A stretch of 42,501 nucleotides of DNA from an uncultured bacterium. GTDB taxonomy: Bacteria; Bipolaricaulota; Bipolaricaulia; UBA7950; UBA9294. The stretch is taken from assembly GCA_913009415.1 (NCBI GenBank), contig CAJVYM010000008.1, positions 1 through 42,501 of the forward strand, in the 5' to 3' direction. The notes beneath the pieces were generated by a model. The model saw only the letters and a list, made by a program, of their open reading frames with translations. It was not told the DNA's origin and ran no database searches. Both the position numbers and the translations under genes were made by a program. Numbering within the stretch: position 1 is the stretch's first letter; every line of letters starts with the position of its first letter. Positions 22,853-42,501 of the stretch are shown piece after piece.

Positions 22853-23395
22853 CTAGTTGGTTGTGACTGTATAGGTGACCGTCACCGCATAGTCGCCTGC
22901 GGCATCGGTCTCGTTTACTAGATACTGATATTGGATGTCGCTGATATGATCGATCGCTGCAGCACTGGTAGTCTTCAAGGTCTGGGTCGTGTTCAGGCTG
23001 GTCCAACTTAGATCTCCGCCCTCGATCTGGAAGCGAGCCAGGTCACCTAGCATGCCGGTGGGGACGACGGCACTGACGGTCAGGGTATAGCCATCGGGAG
23101 CGTTGGTGATCACATAGGCATTATGGTTAGCGCCGTCAGTGACAGGATCCCAAACATCGGTGTCCGGATCATAGTAACTTCCACCGACATCCGTCCCCAG
23201 ATTAACGCTCAAATCAGCAACAGGTATGTATAGGATGATCCAATTTACTACACTCCAACTTGCGTCTACATCGTTTATTGTTGCTGTCGCTGAGGGTGGC
23301 GTGTTAACTACAGTCTCAGCCAGTGTAACTACTCCTACTCCAATAACCAACGCTCCAACCAACATTAATACAAAAAGCCTCTTCATGTTAAGCAC
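22853..23395 (-). CDS. secreted single-domain surface/filament subunit-like protein
   Basis: 180 aa; signal peptide MKRLFVLMLVGALVIGVGVVTLA; C-terminus YQYLVNETDAAGDYAVTVTYTVTTN; SD AGGAGG. Confidence 0.8.
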   Translation of the reverse strand: MLNMKRLFVLMLVGALVIGVGVVTLAETVVNTPPSATATINDVDASWSVVNWIILYIPVADLSVNLGTDVGGSYYDPDTDVWDPVTDGANHNAYVITNAPDGYTLTVSAVVPTGMLGDLARFQIEGGDLSWTSLNTTQTLKTTSAAAIDHISDIQYQYLVNETDAAGDYAVTVTYTVTTN

Positions 23396-23453
23396 CTCCT
23401 AATGGTCTTGTTTCATGAGCATCTTGCAGCTCTGCCACCATTAGGTACACCAC

Positions 23454-23588
23454 GGCAGCCTGACAATCTTCCCGCAGTTTCAACGTCCATTGCGGTTCAA
23501 CTCGATAAACCCTAAGAACCCAACGAACTCTATAAACTCGAAAGACTCATGGCTTTGCGCCCCGGGATCGCTCCCGGTTTGCCCTTTC
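23454..23588 (-). promoter_or_regulatory. GEMM / cyclic-di-GMP-I riboswitch-like aptamer, proximal copy (leader R1)
   Basis: Minus strand GAAAGGGCAAACCGGGAGCGATCCCGGGGCGCAAAGCCATGAGTC; GCGA tetraloop hairpin. 3' P3 half less canonical (GTCAGGCTGCC). Confidence 0.75.
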
Positions 23589-23650
23589 GATCATACCTGT
23601 ATAGGCCGTAGCTTTGCGCCCCGCCCTTTCAAGCGGTTTGCCCTTTAATG
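23589..23650 (-). promoter_or_regulatory. GEMM-like module, distal copy (leader R1)
   Basis: Minus strand TTAAAGGGCAAACCGCTTGAAAGGGCGGGGCGCAAAGCTACGGCCTATACAGGTATGATCG; GAAA tetraloop. Confidence 0.75.
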
Positions 23651-23744
23651 CTTGTGAGAGGCAACAAATTTCGTTCTCTAGTTTACCCAACCTTCAGTTC
23701 GCCTACCACCTCCCTTCTCATTACTAACCACTGCTAACAACTAT

Positions 23745-23869: not shown

Positions 23870-24298
23870 TTATTTGGCAGCTACGGTGTACGTGACCGTT
23901 GCGGTATAATTACCTGGATTCATCGAACGAAGGTTGCTCAGGCTGTAGCCAACGCCTATCTTGGCATTTCCCTTGCCTTTCTTCGCGGAAAGGGAGACAC
24001 CCAGGTGATCGCTGCCCCCTCCTTTCACGGAGAAGGAAAGCGTCCAAGCGGTGTTGCTGAACACATGAAGAGTGTTCGCATTGTCCTTGCTCACGGAGTC
24101 TACACCAGCAGCGATTGTACCGAAGTCGAACGCACTGGCATCTATCGTCAGTTCAACGAACTTTTGGATCGTCCAGTTAACCTTGTTAGCCGCATTGGCT
24201 GACGGTTGTCCTGCAAGACCGATCAGCCCTACGATGCCCACTGTCAAGCCCAACACCAACAGACCTACAAGAAGCTTGTTAATCCTCATCGAAAGCAC
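23870..24298 (-). CDS. small secreted surface/filament subunit-like protein
   Basis: 142 aa; signal peptide (KLLVGLLVLGLTVGIVGLIGLAGQPSANA); NWTIQKFVELTIDASAFDFGTIAAG..YTATVTYTVAAK; close paralog of the 25349 gene. Confidence 0.8.
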   Translation of the reverse strand: MLSMRINKLLVGLLVLGLTVGIVGLIGLAGQPSANAANKVNWTIQKFVELTIDASAFDFGTIAAGVDSVSKDNANTLHVFSNTAWTLSFSVKGGGSDHLGVSLSAKKGKGNAKIGVGYSLSNLRSMNPGNYTATVTYTVAAK

Positions 24299-24351
24299 CT
24301 CCTAATGGTTTTGTCTGAGCACATCTAGTGGCTCGGCCACCATCAGGCCGC

Positions 24352-24491
24352 GGCAGCCCGGCTGCCTTTTCAAGTCCCTTTGTTCTTTGAGTTCTGGGTT
24401 CTTTGGGTTCAACCCAATGAACCCAAGCAACTCTATGAACCCGAAAGGTCCGTGGCTTTGCGTCCCGGGATCGCTCCCGGTTTGCCCTTCA
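24352..24491 (-). promoter_or_regulatory. GEMM / cyclic-di-GMP-I riboswitch, proximal copy (leader R2)
   Basis: Minus strand GAAGGGCAAACCGGGAGCGATCCCGGGACGCAAAGCCACGGACC...GGCAGCCGGGCTGCC; P3 carries an inserted hairpin. Confidence 0.85.
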
Positions 24492-24567
24492 CACTGCTCA
24501 AATATGAGCTTTGCCTAGAAGGTCCGTAGCTTTGCGTCCCGTTCTTTCAAACGGTTTGCCTTTTGTA
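24492..24567 (-). promoter_or_regulatory. GEMM-like module, distal copy (leader R2)
   Basis: Minus strand ACAAAAGGCAAACCGTTTGAAAGAACGGGACGCAAAGCTACGGACC; GAAA tetraloop; no canonical P3 3' half before the next copy. Confidence 0.75.
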
Positions 24568-24716
24568 GATGCCTCGTTGAGGATCTTGTTGTTGCAGCGG
24601 CCAATCCGCTGCAATCTTTCTATCTTTCTCTTGCCAGAGAAGTAGTGCACACGCACTCTTCTTGGCGTTTCGGGCATTCCTTTTTCTCGGTTCACTTGTC
24701 AATGATCTGCGCCTAT

Positions 24717-24893: not shown

Positions 24894-25349
24894 TTACTTG
24901 GTAGTGACAGTATAGGTGACCGTAGCGGTATAGCTGCCAGGATTCATCGTACGCAGGTTGTTCAGGCTGTAGCCGACACCTACCTTGGCATTCCCCTTGC
25001 CTTTCTTGGCGGAAAGGGAGATACCCAAGTGGTCGCTACCGGCTCCTTTCACGGAGAAGGAAAGCGTCCAAGCGGTGTTGCTGAATACTGAAAGAGTGTT
25101 TGCGTTGTCCTTGCTCACGGAGTCAATACCAGCGGCGATCTTGCCAAAGTCGAACGCGCTGTCGTGGATGGTCAATTCAACGAAGCTCTGAACGGTCCAC
25201 GAGACCTTGTTGGTTGCGACTTTGGATGAAGCCGATCCAGCAAATCCAGCCAATCCCAACGTCGTCACTGCCAAACCCAACACCAACAGACCTACCATAA
25301 ACTTGTTAATCCTCATTGAAAGCACCTCCCAATGGTTGTTTGAGTGCAT
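24894..25349 (-). CDS. small secreted surface/filament subunit-like protein (paralog of the 24298 gene)
   Basis: 151 aa (start may be the internal ATG MRINKFMVGLL); VSWTVQSFVELTIHDSAFDFGKIAAGIDSVSKDNANTLSVFSNTAWTLSFSVKG...YTATVTYTVTTK. Confidence 0.8.
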   Translation of the reverse strand: MHSNNHWEVLSMRINKFMVGLLVLGLAVTTLGLAGFAGSASSKVATNKVSWTVQSFVELTIHDSAFDFGKIAAGIDSVSKDNANTLSVFSNTAWTLSFSVKGAGSDHLGISLSAKKGKGNAKVGVGYSLNNLRTMNPGSYTATVTYTVTTK

Positions 25350-25380
25350 CTAGCGACTCGGCCACCATTAGACTGCTTGC

Positions 25381-25511
25381 GGCAACCCGGCGGCCTTTTC
25401 AAGTTCCTTTGTTCTTTGAGTTCTAGGTTCTTTAAGTTCAACCCAATGAACTCTATGAACTTAAAAGGTCCGTGGCTTTGCGTCCCGGGATCGCTCCCGG
25501 TTTGCCCTTTG
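25381..25511 (-). promoter_or_regulatory. GEMM / cyclic-di-GMP-I riboswitch, proximal copy (leader R3)
   Basis: Minus strand AAAGGGCAAACCGGGAGCGATCCCGGGACGCAAAGCCACGGACCTTTT...AAAAGGCCGCCGGGTTGCC. Confidence 0.87.
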
Positions 25512-25587
25512 CACAATGCTCTTACGAGCGTTGTCTAGAAGGTCCGTAGCTTTGCGTCCCGTTCTTTCAAACGGTTTGCTTTTAGTA
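25512..25587 (-). promoter_or_regulatory. GEMM-like module, distal copy (leader R3), G20A-type
   Basis: Minus strand CTAAAAGCAAACCGTTTGAAAGAACGGGACGCAAAGCTACGGACC. Confidence 0.7.
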
Positions 25588-25740
25588 GATGCTTCTCGTG
25601 AGGATATGTAATGCTTGCAGCGGCCATCCGCTGCAATCTTTAGATCTTCTTTACTCCAGAGGAGGGACAAATGATTTGCTCGGCCTCTCCAGCGGAGTTT
25701 TTCTTGCTTCTCGGTTCACTTGTCAATGACCTACACTCAT

Positions 25741-26336: not shown

Positions 26337-27248
26337 GTGAGCCTACAAAAAGAGGCGGGCACGGTCCTCGATATCAAGCGTTACGCGATCCACGACGGGC
26401 CCGGAATCCGCACCACGGTCTTTCTCAAGGGCTGCCCTCTTGCCTGTGAATGGTGTCACAACCCGGAGAGCCAGCGCGAGCGGCCAGAGATCCTTTACTA
26501 CCAAGAGCGCTGCACCCTGTGCGGTGCTTGCGTCTTGGCCTGCGAGAACGCGGCGATCAGCATTGCTGGTGGCCATCTGGCCCTCGATCAATCTCTCTGC
26601 GTTGGATGCGGCGACTGCGTCACTGCCTGCCCGAATGGGGCGCGTGAGCTCGCCGGACGGCAGATGAGCGTCGAACAGGTCGTCTCGGAGGTAGTGAAGG
26701 ATACACTCTTCTACGAGGAATCGGGCGGAGGGGTGACCTTCTCCGGCGGCGAACCGCTGCTGCAAGCGGGCTTCGTTCGCGCTGTCGCTGCCCGCTGCGC
26801 AGAGTTGGACATTCACACCGCGCTCGACACGAGTGGATTCGCCCCGGAGAGGGAACTGATCAAGGTCGCCGATGTCATTGATCTCTTCCTCTACGATGTC
26901 AAGACGGTCGATGATGCGGCACATCTGGCGTACACCGGGGTATCTAATCGCAGCATCCTGTGCAATCTGCAAATTCTCGATGAGATGGGAAAGCGGATCT
27001 GGATCAGGTTTCCTCTCGTGCCAGGCGTGAACGACGGCGAGCGCTCGCTGTCTGACATGATCGATCTGATCGGGCCCCTAAAATCGGTGGAAGGGGTCCA
27101 GGTTCTGCCGTATCATCGCGCGGGTGCGGGCAAGTATGTCCACCTGGGGCGAGAGCACTTGTTTGCTCGGACGCAGGAGCCATCCGGAGAAGAAGCTGCT
27201 ACGTATCTTGCCAAGGGTACCGGCCTTCCGGTGCAGATAGGAGGATAG
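26337..27248 (+). CDS. glycyl-radical enzyme activating protein (radical SAM, with ferredoxin-like insert)
   Basis: 303 aa; IHDGPGIRTTVFLKGCPLACEWCHNPES (CxxxCxxC), CTLCGACVLAC, CVGCGDCVTACPNGA, GGGVTFSGGEPL. Confidence 0.95.
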   Translation: MSLQKEAGTVLDIKRYAIHDGPGIRTTVFLKGCPLACEWCHNPESQRERPEILYYQERCTLCGACVLACENAAISIAGGHLALDQSLCVGCGDCVTACPNGARELAGRQMSVEQVVSEVVKDTLFYEESGGGVTFSGGEPLLQAGFVRAVAARCAELDIHTALDTSGFAPERELIKVADVIDLFLYDVKTVDDAAHLAYTGVSNRSILCNLQILDEMGKRIWIRFPLVPGVNDGERSLSDMIDLIGPLKSVEGVQVLPYHRAGAGKYVHLGREHLFARTQEPSGEEAATYLAKGTGLPVQIGG

Positions 27249-27251
27249 GAA

Positions 27252-29612
27252 ATGAACAAACGTATTGAGCGGTTGCTGCAGGAGAGCCGGGATGCTATCC
27301 CGCGGGTGAGCGCTGAGCGGGCTCGCTTGCTGACGGAGTTCTATTCTAGCTCCAAGGCGTTGGGGCATTCTGTTCCCGTGACGCGAGCGCTGGCATTCTC
27401 CTATCTGCTAGCAAACAAGTCGATCTTCATCGGTGATGGTGAACTGATCGTCGGTGAGCGCGGCCCCGCACCCAAATCGACGCCGACCTACCCTGAACTG
27501 TGCAGCCACTCCGCGGACGATCTGCGTTTGCTCGACACGCGCCTGCGCACGCCGTTTGCCGTGAGTGAGGATGCGTTCACCACGCTGACCGAGGAAGTGA
27601 TCCCGTTCTGGCGGGGTCGCTCGATGCGTGAGAAGGTGTTCGCCGCGATGACATCGGAGTGGCAGCAGGCGTTCGACGCCGGTGTATTCACCGAGTTTAT
27701 GGAGCAACGATCCCCCGGGCACGCCGTCCTCGATGACAAGATTTACCACCACGGCCTGCTCGACTTCATCAAACGGATCGAGGACGTACGCGCACGGATC
27801 GACTGGAAGAGCGATCCCCGTGCCTACGATGAGGATGAAGAGCTGTACGCGATGAAAATCTCCGCCGAAGCGATGATCAATCTTGCCGAGAGGTACGCCG
27901 ATCTGGCAAGGGAGATGGCAGAAAGGGAACAGGATCCCCGCAGGCGCGATGAGCTAGCAAGCATAACAGAAGTATGTGAGTGGGTACCCGCGCACGCTCC
28001 ACGGAGCTTCTGGGAGGCGATCCAGATGTACTGGTTCGTCCATCTGGGGGTGGTGATCGAGCTGAACAGTTGGGACTCGTTCAACCCCGGGCGTCTCGAT
28101 CAACACTTAAGTCCGTTCTACGAGCGCGAGCTCGCTTCCGGGACGCTCACCCGCGATCAGGCAAAGGAACTCCTCGAGTGTCTGTGGATCAAGTTCTCCA
28201 ACCAGCCGGCTCCGCCAAAGGTGGGGATCACCGTGGAACAGAGCGCCACGTACAACGACTTCGTCCTCGTCAACACCGGCGGGCTGACCGAGAACGGGGA
28301 GGATGCGGTGGACGAGGTCTCCTACCTCATCCTGGATGTGATCGGGGAGATGCGCCTTCCGTTCAGCGGCTCCTGCATCCAACTGAGCAAGAAGAACCCC
28401 AATCGCTTCCTCAAGGCAGCGCTGCGCGTGGTGCGCAAGGGGTTTGGTCAGCCCTCGATCTTCAACACCGATGCCATCGTGCAGGAGTTCCTGCGCGCGG
28501 GGAAGAGCATCGAGGATGCGCGAAACGGCGGGCCGAGCGGGTGCGTGACGATCAGCGCATTCGGCAGGGAGAGCTGCGTCCTCACCGGATACATGAACTG
28601 GCCAAAGATCCTGGAGATCGCGCTGCACAACGGGATTGATCCGCGCAGCGGAGAGATGGTGGGAATCGAGACCGGCGATGTGCGCGAGTTTAAGAGCTTC
28701 GATCAGCTGTTCTCCGCCTACCGCAAGCAGCTTGAGTACTTCATCGATCTGAAGATAGCCGGTAACAGCACGATCGAGCGGCTGTACTCACGAGAGATGC
28801 CCGCCCCGTTCCTCTCGCTCCTTGTCGATGATTGCATTACGCGTGGGCGTGATTACAACGACGGCGGACCGCGCTACCCGACGACCTACATCCAAGGGGT
28901 CGGCTTGGGGACGACGACTGATGCACTGTCGGCGATCAAAGAGCGCGTGTTCGAAAAAGCTGATCTCTTGCTTGCCGACCTGGTACGCGCGCTCGATAAC
29001 AACTTTGATGGCGCAGAGGGACTGCGTAAGCGCCTTGCCGCATCGCCGGCGTTTGGAAACGACGACGATCGCGCAGATGACATTGCACGGGCAATCTTCG
29101 ATGCCTACTTCGAAGCGATCGATGGTCGCGCGAACACAAACGGCGGCTCCTACCGGATCAACCTTCTCCCGACGACCGTACACATCTACTTTGGGAGGAT
29201 GGTCGGGGCGACGGCGAACGGTCGCGCCGCCGGCACGCCACTCTCCGATGGGATCTCACCCAGCCAGGGGGCGGACACGCGCGGTCCGACCGCGGTCGTG
29301 CGCTCGATGGGAAAGATCGACCATGTCCGTACCGGCGGCACGCTCCTAAACCAGAAGTTCCTCCCCTCAGTCCTTGCCGATGACAGCGGGATCGACAAGC
29401 TGGCGGCCCTCGTGCGCACGTACTTTCGCTACGACGGGCACCACATCCAATTTAACGTTGTCGGCGTCGACACCCTGCACGATGCCAAGCTCCATCCGGA
29501 GGCGCACCGCGACCTCATCGTTCGCGTCGCTGGATACAGCGACTACTTCAACAACCTCGGCCCGGGCTTGCAGGATGAGATCATCGCCCGCACGGCTCAC
29601 GAGGAACTCTAG
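27252..29612 (+). CDS. glycyl radical enzyme, PFL-like family
   Basis: 786 aa; C-terminal RVAGYSDYF glycyl-radical motif; putative active-site Cys in GGPSGCVTISAFGRESC; adjacent activase. Confidence 0.92.
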   Translation: MNKRIERLLQESRDAIPRVSAERARLLTEFYSSSKALGHSVPVTRALAFSYLLANKSIFIGDGELIVGERGPAPKSTPTYPELCSHSADDLRLLDTRLRTPFAVSEDAFTTLTEEVIPFWRGRSMREKVFAAMTSEWQQAFDAGVFTEFMEQRSPGHAVLDDKIYHHGLLDFIKRIEDVRARIDWKSDPRAYDEDEELYAMKISAEAMINLAERYADLAREMAEREQDPRRRDELASITEVCEWVPAHAPRSFWEAIQMYWFVHLGVVIELNSWDSFNPGRLDQHLSPFYERELASGTLTRDQAKELLECLWIKFSNQPAPPKVGITVEQSATYNDFVLVNTGGLTENGEDAVDEVSYLILDVIGEMRLPFSGSCIQLSKKNPNRFLKAALRVVRKGFGQPSIFNTDAIVQEFLRAGKSIEDARNGGPSGCVTISAFGRESCVLTGYMNWPKILEIALHNGIDPRSGEMVGIETGDVREFKSFDQLFSAYRKQLEYFIDLKIAGNSTIERLYSREMPAPFLSLLVDDCITRGRDYNDGGPRYPTTYIQGVGLGTTTDALSAIKERVFEKADLLLADLVRALDNNFDGAEGLRKRLAASPAFGNDDDRADDIARAIFDAYFEAIDGRANTNGGSYRINLLPTTVHIYFGRMVGATANGRAAGTPLSDGISPSQGADTRGPTAVVRSMGKIDHVRTGGTLLNQKFLPSVLADDSGIDKLAALVRTYFRYDGHHIQFNVVGVDTLHDAKLHPEAHRDLIVRVAGYSDYFNNLGPGLQDEIIARTAHEEL

Positions 29613-40559: not shown

Positions 40560-40569
40560 CTCGTTTTCG

Positions 40570-40641
40570 GAAACCCGGCTACCATTTCAGGCCCGTGGCT
40601 TTGCGTCCCTCACTTGTTATTCGTGAGGTTTGCCGTTTCGA
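40570..40641 (-). promoter_or_regulatory. GEMM / cyclic-di-GMP-I riboswitch, single copy (leader R4)
   Basis: Minus strand GAAACGGCAAACCTCACGAATAACAAGTGAGGGACGCAAAGCCACGGGCCTGAAATGGTAGCCGGGTTTCC, including the canonical P3 half GGTAGCCGGGTT. Confidence 0.88.
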
Positions 40642-40682
40642 TTCCGAATCTTCACCCCCTACTTAGTATTTTCCACAATCAT

Positions 40683-40747: not shown

Positions 40748-41707
40748 TCAGTAGTAAACACTGCGTGTGCGATGGCGTGAAATAGCCTTGTAGTCAGGGT
40801 TCTGACCCCTATTCCACAGTGCGTTATCAAGCTGCTGTGAGGTGATCTTCTTCCCACTGGCGGAGGTCTCTGTCACGATCAGCTCAACCGCGTGCACAGC
40901 GCAGGCGCGGATTTCGATCTCCTCCTCCGAACCAGCGGGGATCAGCTCTTCACGTTCGATGCGTACCAGGAGATCCTCGTCGTAGGAGAGAATTCCATCT
41001 ACCCGCAGTACGTGCGGGACCATGTTATCGGCGAAGATGGTCAGTCGATCTAGGTCGTGAAACTCGCCCGGCCCCTTCCCGTTGAAGGCAAGAGCAAGGT
41101 CAGAAGTGGTTATCTGTGCCCGCTTGTAGAATGGGACATTCATTCCTCTGTATTGCTCCTCGTCGGAGAAGAGCGGCATCACGCGCAGTATGTCGACCAA
41201 GCGGGCAGCGGAGTGGTTCGCCTCCTCGACAAGCTCGATGACGCTTCCGTGAGAGCGATAGATGAGGTAGGAGCCAAGGTCGCTCAGCGCGCGGGAGAAG
41301 AGTTTCATCAGTTCCGCGATCACCGGGTCTCTCAAGTCCTGAGAGAAGATCTCGGCGCAATCGCGTGGCGTAATTTCTTGTAGGTCACGTGCCGAAAGCG
41401 GGCCATTAGCAGTGAAGAAATCGGTGAGCGAGGAGGCGATGGTGAAGTACCCACTCATCCCCGGGCGCTTGCACAGATGCGGGAAGTACCCCGAGCCGAA
41501 GTTGATCGCGTCCAGAGTGAGGATAAACGCCACCGTGTCATCGCCGTGGCCCACGTAGTGGCTAACCGGATCGAGCGTTGGCCTCTCCGCCAGGGAAGTG
41601 AGCAACGATGCGGCATAAGCCGGGATAAGATCATGATTGATGCGCACATGTACAGCACTCTCCGCGACAGCCTTACACCCGCTTCGTACACGTTCTAGTG
41701 AATTCAT
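40748..41707 (-). CDS. queuosine salvage (Qng1/DUF2419-like) family protein
   Basis: 319 aa; FILTLDAINFGSGYFPHL, YRGMNVPFYKRAQITTSDLALAF, LTIFADNMVPHVLRVDGILSYDEDLLVRIE, EEIEIRACAVHAVELI. Confidence 0.85.
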   Translation of the reverse strand: MNSLERVRSGCKAVAESAVHVRINHDLIPAYAASLLTSLAERPTLDPVSHYVGHGDDTVAFILTLDAINFGSGYFPHLCKRPGMSGYFTIASSLTDFFTANGPLSARDLQEITPRDCAEIFSQDLRDPVIAELMKLFSRALSDLGSYLIYRSHGSVIELVEEANHSAARLVDILRVMPLFSDEEQYRGMNVPFYKRAQITTSDLALAFNGKGPGEFHDLDRLTIFADNMVPHVLRVDGILSYDEDLLVRIEREELIPAGSEEEIEIRACAVHAVELIVTETSASGKKITSQQLDNALWNRGQNPDYKAISRHRTRSVYY

Positions 41708-42240: not shown

Positions 42241-42383
42241 AGCAACAATAGGAGAAACGAAATCCACCAGTAGAGTAGAGGAGCAGGTGACAGGGTTTAG
42301 GCTTCGGCATACTTCAGTTACAGGGTTTCCCCGTTGTGGCTCATTAGTCGCATGCCTTGCTCTGTGCCCTACTCCCCCCTCGT

Positions 42384-42501
42384 CGAACCGGACGTGCGGT
42401 TTTCCCGCATCCGGCTCTCCTGGAAACTCTCGCCGCAGACACTCACAGTCGTTGCACGGTTAGACCCCTCATAGATACACCAGCCCCATTCGGTTCAGAT
42501 G
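42384..42501 (-). mobile_element. group II intron 3' portion: domain V and upstream sequence, truncated by the window edge
   Basis: Minus strand GAGCCGGATGCGGGAAAACCGCACGTCCGGTTCG (42384-42417) is a canonical 34-nt domain V with AGC triad. Possible maturase C-terminus HLNRMGLVYL* at 42469-42501. Domain VI and the 3' splice site (coordinates below 42384) not resolved. Confidence 0.85.

Follow-up and report, generated by a model that had tools for sequence, protein, structure and literature searches.

Organization of the R1-R3 leaders

The window, that is the whole 42,501-nucleotide stretch of DNA that was analysed, carries on its minus strand three leaders with GEMM-I aptamers, R1, R2 and R3, each of which precedes a gene for a small predicted secreted protein (Table 1). 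No confident Pfam family was found for the three gene products; a protein encoded downstream in the cluster gave a weak, sub-threshold match to the WxL-interacting-protein domain, and a surface or matrix role for the R1-R3 products may be envisaged. A strong hairpin, TTGCAGCGG...CCGCTGCAA, lies about 10-20 nt upstream of the R3 and R2 elements (25615-25636 and 24592-24614, minus strand) and also occurs in relatives (e.g. L135), perhaps as a 5' stabiliser or an upstream terminator. The inner aptamers of R3 and R2 contain a 60-80 nt repeat-like P3 insertion, GGGTTCATTGGGTT... (25398-25466 and 24369-24446, minus strand), which is absent from the orthologues in two other genomes of the genus (G001 and G002), similar in a third (G003) and has a related counterpart in G051.

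Elsewhere in the window, a compact, ordinary GEMM-I aptamer (40566-40644, minus strand, 62.5 bits) precedes a 174-amino-acid ORF without a Pfam match, the two adjoining a queuosine salvage gene (40748-41707), and at the contig end there is an Rfam match to a group II catalytic intron family (42270-42419, minus strand, 48.4 bits). Judged by sequence only, an ORF on the plus strand (26337-27248) resembles a glycyl-radical-enzyme activase; a 786-amino-acid ORF comes after it (27252-29612, plus strand).

Table 1. Positions of the features of the R3, R2 and R1 leaders in the window
Feature	Position	Strand	Basis or remark
R3 5' flank and first part of outer P1, ATCCTCACGAGAAGCATC	25588-25605	-	predicted OFF pairing, by complementarity to RBS and start codon
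R3 outer P1, 5' strand GCATCTA	25586-25592	-	pairs with 25346-25352
R3 outer core and P2 hairpin, GAAA loop, A47 equivalent; 25580 is position 20 (A)	25550-25580	-	Rfam alignment; A1 columns 21-49
R3 outer P3, 5' strand with extension, CTACGGACCTTCTAGAC	25533-25549	-	pairs with 25353-25373
R3 linker hairpin, outer 5' half to inner aptamer	25512-25530	-	local stem GCTC/GAGC; predicted folds
R3 inner (proximal) complete GEMM-I, G20, long insertion in its own P3	25379-25507	-	RF03167/RF01051 match
R3 outer 3' half: P3 3' strand GTCTAATGGTGGCCGAGTC, then G and C92 equivalent (25353)	25353-25373	-	C92 invariant, 32/32
R3 outer P1, 3' strand TAGATGC	25346-25352	-	pairing with 25586-25592
R3 expression platform: pre-SD ACCATTGG, SD GGAGG (25325-25329), ATG (25314-25316)	25309-25336	-	sequence
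R3 regulated gene, 140-aa predicted secreted protein	24894-25316	-	translation; paralogue of R2 gene product
R2 leader, nested element, outer G20	24282-24572	-	Rfam, A1
R2 outer P1	24566-24572/24321-24327	-	
R2 outer core	24530-24560	-	
R2 inner aptamer	24350-24487	-	
R2 outer 3' half	24328-24349	-	
R2 RBS	24282-24309	-	
R1 leader, nested element, outer G20	23377-23665	-	Rfam, A1
R1 outer core	23612-23642	-	
R1 inner aptamer	23453-23584	-	
R1 outer 3' half and P1	23419-23445	-	
R1 RBS	23377-23406	-	

Arrangement of the two aptamers of R3

The distal R3 module (25590-25534, minus strand) scored 35.0 bits against RF01051 in Infernal, which is exactly the gathering score, and Rfam fitted only a false 3' half beside it. 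Both observations would suit a decaying half-aptamer left by a duplication, with the proximal riboswitch working alone. However, beyond the proximal aptamer (RF03167/RF01051 match at 25515-25377, 59.8 bits) there is another GEMM 3' half, AUGGUGGCCGAGUCGC. The UAGAUGC that comes after it is complementary to GCAUCUA, located immediately before the distal 5' half, and the proximal aptamer would therefore lie inside P3 of the distal one. Sequence comparison thus identifies the distal module as the 5' half of an outer GEMM-I aptamer that holds a complete G20 aptamer within its P3: the outer 3' half (P3 strand, C92 and P1 strand) is located past the inner aptamer and the first aptamer is not complete before the second begins. 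The preliminary description had taken the two modules as neighbours and had placed the distal one at 25512-25587; these positions cover the 5' half only of the element, the 3' half follows some 140 nt later (25346-25373), and the neighbouring arrangement is replaced by a nested one. Roughly 85-240 nt, with a second complete aptamer among them, separate the halves of the outer aptamer, and for this reason Rfam sees its 5' half only. The 'GGC' label that RF03167 attaches to the R3 inner aptamer was set aside and the aptamer taken as ordinary GEMM-I, because its A47 is normal.

Removal of the inner aptamer and joining of the outer halves in 32 distinct outer elements gave an alignment (A1) in which 91.7% of the pair cells are standard, compared with 31-39% when the partners are slid by 1-3 columns. 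Both sides are changed in 55 cells (19.4 +/- 3.6 when shuffled, with 0/500 shuffles reaching 55) and in 12 pairs (7.0 shuffled), and covariation is 0.263 against 0.173 +/- 0.007; none of the 500 shuffles reaches the alignment on any measure, although the loci are related and such permutation counts overstate their independence. With the inner aptamer removed, covariation supports P1, P2 and P3 of the outer three-way junction. P1 is paired in 97.9% of cells with U-A/C-G covariation (column 12-103 is U-A in 18 elements and C-G in 12), and the P3 extension is less regular, at 76% of cells. The equivalents of A47 and C92 (A1 columns 49 and 99) are invariant in 32/32, and in 18/32 elements A49 lacks a standard partner. 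As regards the GNRA tetraloop of P2 and its putative receptor in P3, the outer aptamers almost all have a GAAA loop, L129 having GUGA, and they contain receptor-like CCU...AUGG sequences. Furthermore, a covariance model built from the joined outer halves alone found 32 ordinary GEMM-I matches in 24 other loci, mostly at full length and with E-values down to 5.8e-17. The suggestion that the distal copy is simply decaying, also made in the preliminary description, is rejected here: P1, P2, P3, A47 and C92 are all intact in R3, in all loci the 3' half stands downstream of the inner aptamer with compensatory changes (32/32 intact), and the pocket residues are invariant except at position 20, where the A is itself kept between species. 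A decaying half-aptamer is consequently highly improbable.

The presence of identical ACGGACCTT strands in R2 and R3 raises a different possibility, namely a single 3' half for which two 5' halves compete. In R1, L147 and L045, the P3 strands of the outer and inner aptamers are dissimilar enough for each 5' half to be seen to fit its own 3' half, and on account of these separate, matched 3' halves the shared arrangement was rejected. Exchange of the outer and inner 3' halves lowered the pairing in 25/33 loci, clearly so in the same three; the exchange is a crude measure, since the inner 3' half was placed automatically, and only roughly in several of the other loci.

The nested set comprises 32 distinct loci from 21 genomes in three families (f1, f4 and f8), all of them from metagenome assemblies; beyond these, L045 belongs to a fourth family (f6) and L181 is a further likely case. 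When 85,462 GTDB species genomes were scanned for the nested spacing, 46 stretches were returned; every one with a GEMM hairpin upstream comes from Bipolaricaulota/Acetothermia, if L168 and L188 are included on the strength of their match to G023 and G052, members of that GTDB phylum. With this strict pattern no nested arrangement was found outside Bipolaricaulota among the GTDB representatives, the remaining stretches looking like chance.

Conservation of adenosine at position 20 of the outer aptamer

Infernal alignment of the distal R3 core, UACUAAAAGCAAACC, against ugaaAAaGGCAAAcc of RF01051 places an A at 25580 (minus strand) opposite a consensus G that equals G20 of Vc2, as had been proposed. 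The accompanying claim that the remaining copies have G20 also holds, for every other GEMM-I copy in the window: the cores read AAAGGGC in R1 distal and R3 proximal, AAAAGGC in R2 distal, GAAGGGC in R2 proximal and GAAACGGC in the copy at 40.6 kb. Few cores have A20: a search of 100 genomes of the phylum with exact core patterns gave 14 with it and about 325 without, and 7/14 A20 cores belong to four genomes of the window's genus. At the orthologous outer site A20 is present in five loci, covering 4/4 genus genomes examined (L120 in the window, L121 and L122 in G001, L124 in G003 and L126 in G002), and a sequencing error is therefore excluded; the R2-type paralogues (L119, L123 and L125) have G20. 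A sixth A20 outer aptamer, L146, comes from genome G052 of another family. Between the species of the genus the identity of the R3 protein falls to 63-79% with A20 kept throughout, and P2 of the A20 outer aptamer has compensatory changes on both sides, so that decay of the site is excluded. Free-standing GEMM-I cores with A20 were also seen elsewhere in the phylum (L056 on G003:C102, L057 on G002:C293, L044, L047, L048, L053 and L054); some are complete aptamers (L056, 70.7 bits) and are candidates for mixed or cGAMP binding.

Ligand of the outer aptamer

The base at position 20 contacts the ligand base, and the G20A form of Vc2 binds cGAMP (PMC6274999, PMC7288161). In a natural A20 aptamer, from Desulfobacca cluster 3, cGAMP binding is improved and is mixed rather than exclusive, and binding of c-di-GMP was weakened by A20 alone perhaps slightly, if at all (PMC9481103). 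On this last observation A20 in R3 might be neutral drift, the pocket binding c-di-GMP equally well. This is rather unlikely, given that the A is kept in five copies from four species while other unpaired and stem positions vary, and that the R2 paralogues keep G.

A second possibility is a two-input gate, in which an outer A20 aptamer of GEMM-Ib type would be read by 3',3'-cGAMP (or by both dinucleotides), the inner G20 aptamer, sensing c-di-GMP, would be needed for assembly, and R3 would need both for its one start codon to be opened. The binding behaviour of Vc2 G20A and of the Desulfobacca aptamer is consistent with such a gate, as are the conservation of A20 in the genus, its recurrence in G052 and the presence of SMODS matches in G002 and G003. 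Nevertheless, the gate is improbable. First, the cGAMP-selective Geobacter pocket (PDB 4YAZ) has a C15-G40 pair (PMC6274999); the R3 outer aptamer shares the A20 of GEMM-Ib and lacks a pair of the C21-G46 type, position 21 being G in every A20 outer copy and the G21-C46 equivalents (A1 columns 22-48) being invariant GC. Second, no Hypr serine or GHxxGS signature was found in the canonical GGDEF domains read in the genus, all of which have Asp (PF00990 search of ten genomes; 3/3 domains with Asp at the Hypr position in this genome), and a Hypr cGAMP synthase was set aside. Third, the CD-NTase (SMODS) search gave no match in this genome (G000) or in G001, both about 91% complete, the matches in G002 and G003 being sporadic among genus genomes that are 71-92% complete. 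The two SMODS-type nucleotidyltransferase genes are L204 (G002:C48), beside a patatin-like ORF in a CBASS-like arrangement, and L205 (G003:C140).

The preliminary description had placed a cGAMP-type copy beside a c-di-GMP-type one and had pointed to Hypr GGDEF or DncV-like enzymes in the genome; the A20 copy next to a G20 one, with two different pockets in one leader, stands, whereas the window's genome gave neither a Hypr serine nor a CD-NTase match. A cGAMP reading of the R3 outer aptamer is thus possible, if weakly supported. Taken together, G21, the Asp-type GGDEF domains and the absence of SMODS matches from this genome and G001 point rather to a c-di-GMP device, its outer pocket being tuned or mixed.

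Expression platform and proposed mechanism

A duplex of -16 to -36 kcal/mol is possible in 32/32 leaders between the region from the SD to the start codon and the 5' flank with the 5' strand of outer P1. In R3 this joins ATCCTC..AAGCATC to GGTGCTT..ATGAGGAT, the ATCCTCACGAGAAGCATC region forming a duplex of -21.6 kcal/mol with GGAGGTGCTTTCAATGAGGAT; in R1 it joins GCCTCT to AGAGGC, and in L147 the duplex is near-perfect. Over the 32 loci the mean energy of this anti-RBS pairing is -24.8, compared with -21.2 for permuted partners (0/20000) and -12.8 for a shuffled partner. Likewise, ACCATTAG/ACCATTGG, which directly precedes the SD, is a possible partner for CTAATGGT of the outer P3 3' strand, ACCATTGG being the one in R3; permutation of partners over the 32 loci gave 1/20000 for this pre-SD helix and 0/20000 for P1. 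As read from these complementarities, the 5' flank together with the 5' strand of outer P1 has two predicted partners, the outer P1 3' strand or the SD/start-codon region, and so has the outer P3 3' strand, within P3 or in the pre-SD sequence. Given that the anti-RBS and pre-SD helices reuse bases of outer P1 and P3, ligand binding and a blocked start codon would be mutually exclusive, and a translational ON switch is therefore the simplest reading.

It is conceivable that the nested element acts in the opposite sense, the ligand-formed outer P1 holding the 5' CCTC near SD/GAGG so that translation is blocked, and the TCCTC...GAGGA start-codon pairing can indeed persist in a fold of R3 with the outer aptamer enforced. 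This is unlikely, since GCATC is common to outer P1 and the anti-RBS helix, and CTAATGGT to the pre-SD helix and the outer P3 3' strand; the ligand must therefore break the blocking helices, and the P1, anti-RBS and pre-SD helices all covary. The closed RBS seen when R2 and R3 are folded without constraint suits the ON reading. Against it, the closed state is favoured over the enforced outer aptamer by about 13.5 kcal/mol on secondary-structure energy alone, and the SD of R3 is only partly open when the outer aptamer is imposed. The ligand, tertiary contacts and co-transcriptional order must consequently do the work, and ON polarity and cooperation are both putative.

It is suggested that, without ligand, the alternative pairings would shut the RBS and keep the leader OFF. 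The whole inner aptamer is transcribed ahead of the outer 3' half; it may fold first and draw the two outer halves to each other, after which ligand bound in the outer pocket would lock P1 and P3 and free the RBS for translation, and two linked sites could give a steeper response. Co-transcriptional order probably matters in the switch. The A20 of the outer pocket may adjust how tightly or how selectively ligand is bound; c-di-GMP most likely remains the ligand, with binding that is weaker or mixed. Small secreted, probably surface, proteins would be the output. In summary, the R3 leader as a whole is likely to be a nested GEMM-I pair that acts as a translational ON switch with an A20-tuned outer pocket.

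Relation to known riboswitches

Both aptamers have the P1/P2/P3 layout, GAAA loop, A47 and C92 of GEMM-I (RF01051), from which the outer one differs in its interruption by roughly 85-240 nt and, in the R3 type, in the A at position 20. Tandem GEMM-I aptamers are already known and common, with 347 c-di-GMP-I doublets (PMC9481103) and the Bc3-5 triple tandem (PMC4759541). In these too one gene stands under two aptamers of the same class; however, the aptamers are consecutive and complete there, whereas the present pair has one aptamer within P3 of its partner and a single translational platform for both. With GEMM-Ib (Geobacter 4YAZ; Desulfobacca cluster 3) the R3 outer aptamer shares the A that contacts the ligand base, but at position 21 it has the G of Vc2 G20A (4YB1) rather than the C of 4YAZ, and no Hypr cyclase was found in the R3 genus. 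A published nested natural riboswitch, and with it a nested natural pair of the same class, was not found in the literature searched (many subscription papers lie outside it), where only engineered or unrelated uses came up, and the word 'nested' is absent from the reviews consulted.

The elements described here are nested natural aptamers of the same class that have been kept across a phylum, Bipolaricaulota, and they are missed by standard scans because each annotation ends at a half. Given that the inner aptamer forms part of the structure of the outer, they would offer a clean natural test of aptamer cooperation, and also a test of co-transcriptional assembly order. Furthermore, R2 and R3, with G20 and A20 in otherwise matching outer aptamers of one genome, provide a ready comparison of the role of a single pocket base.
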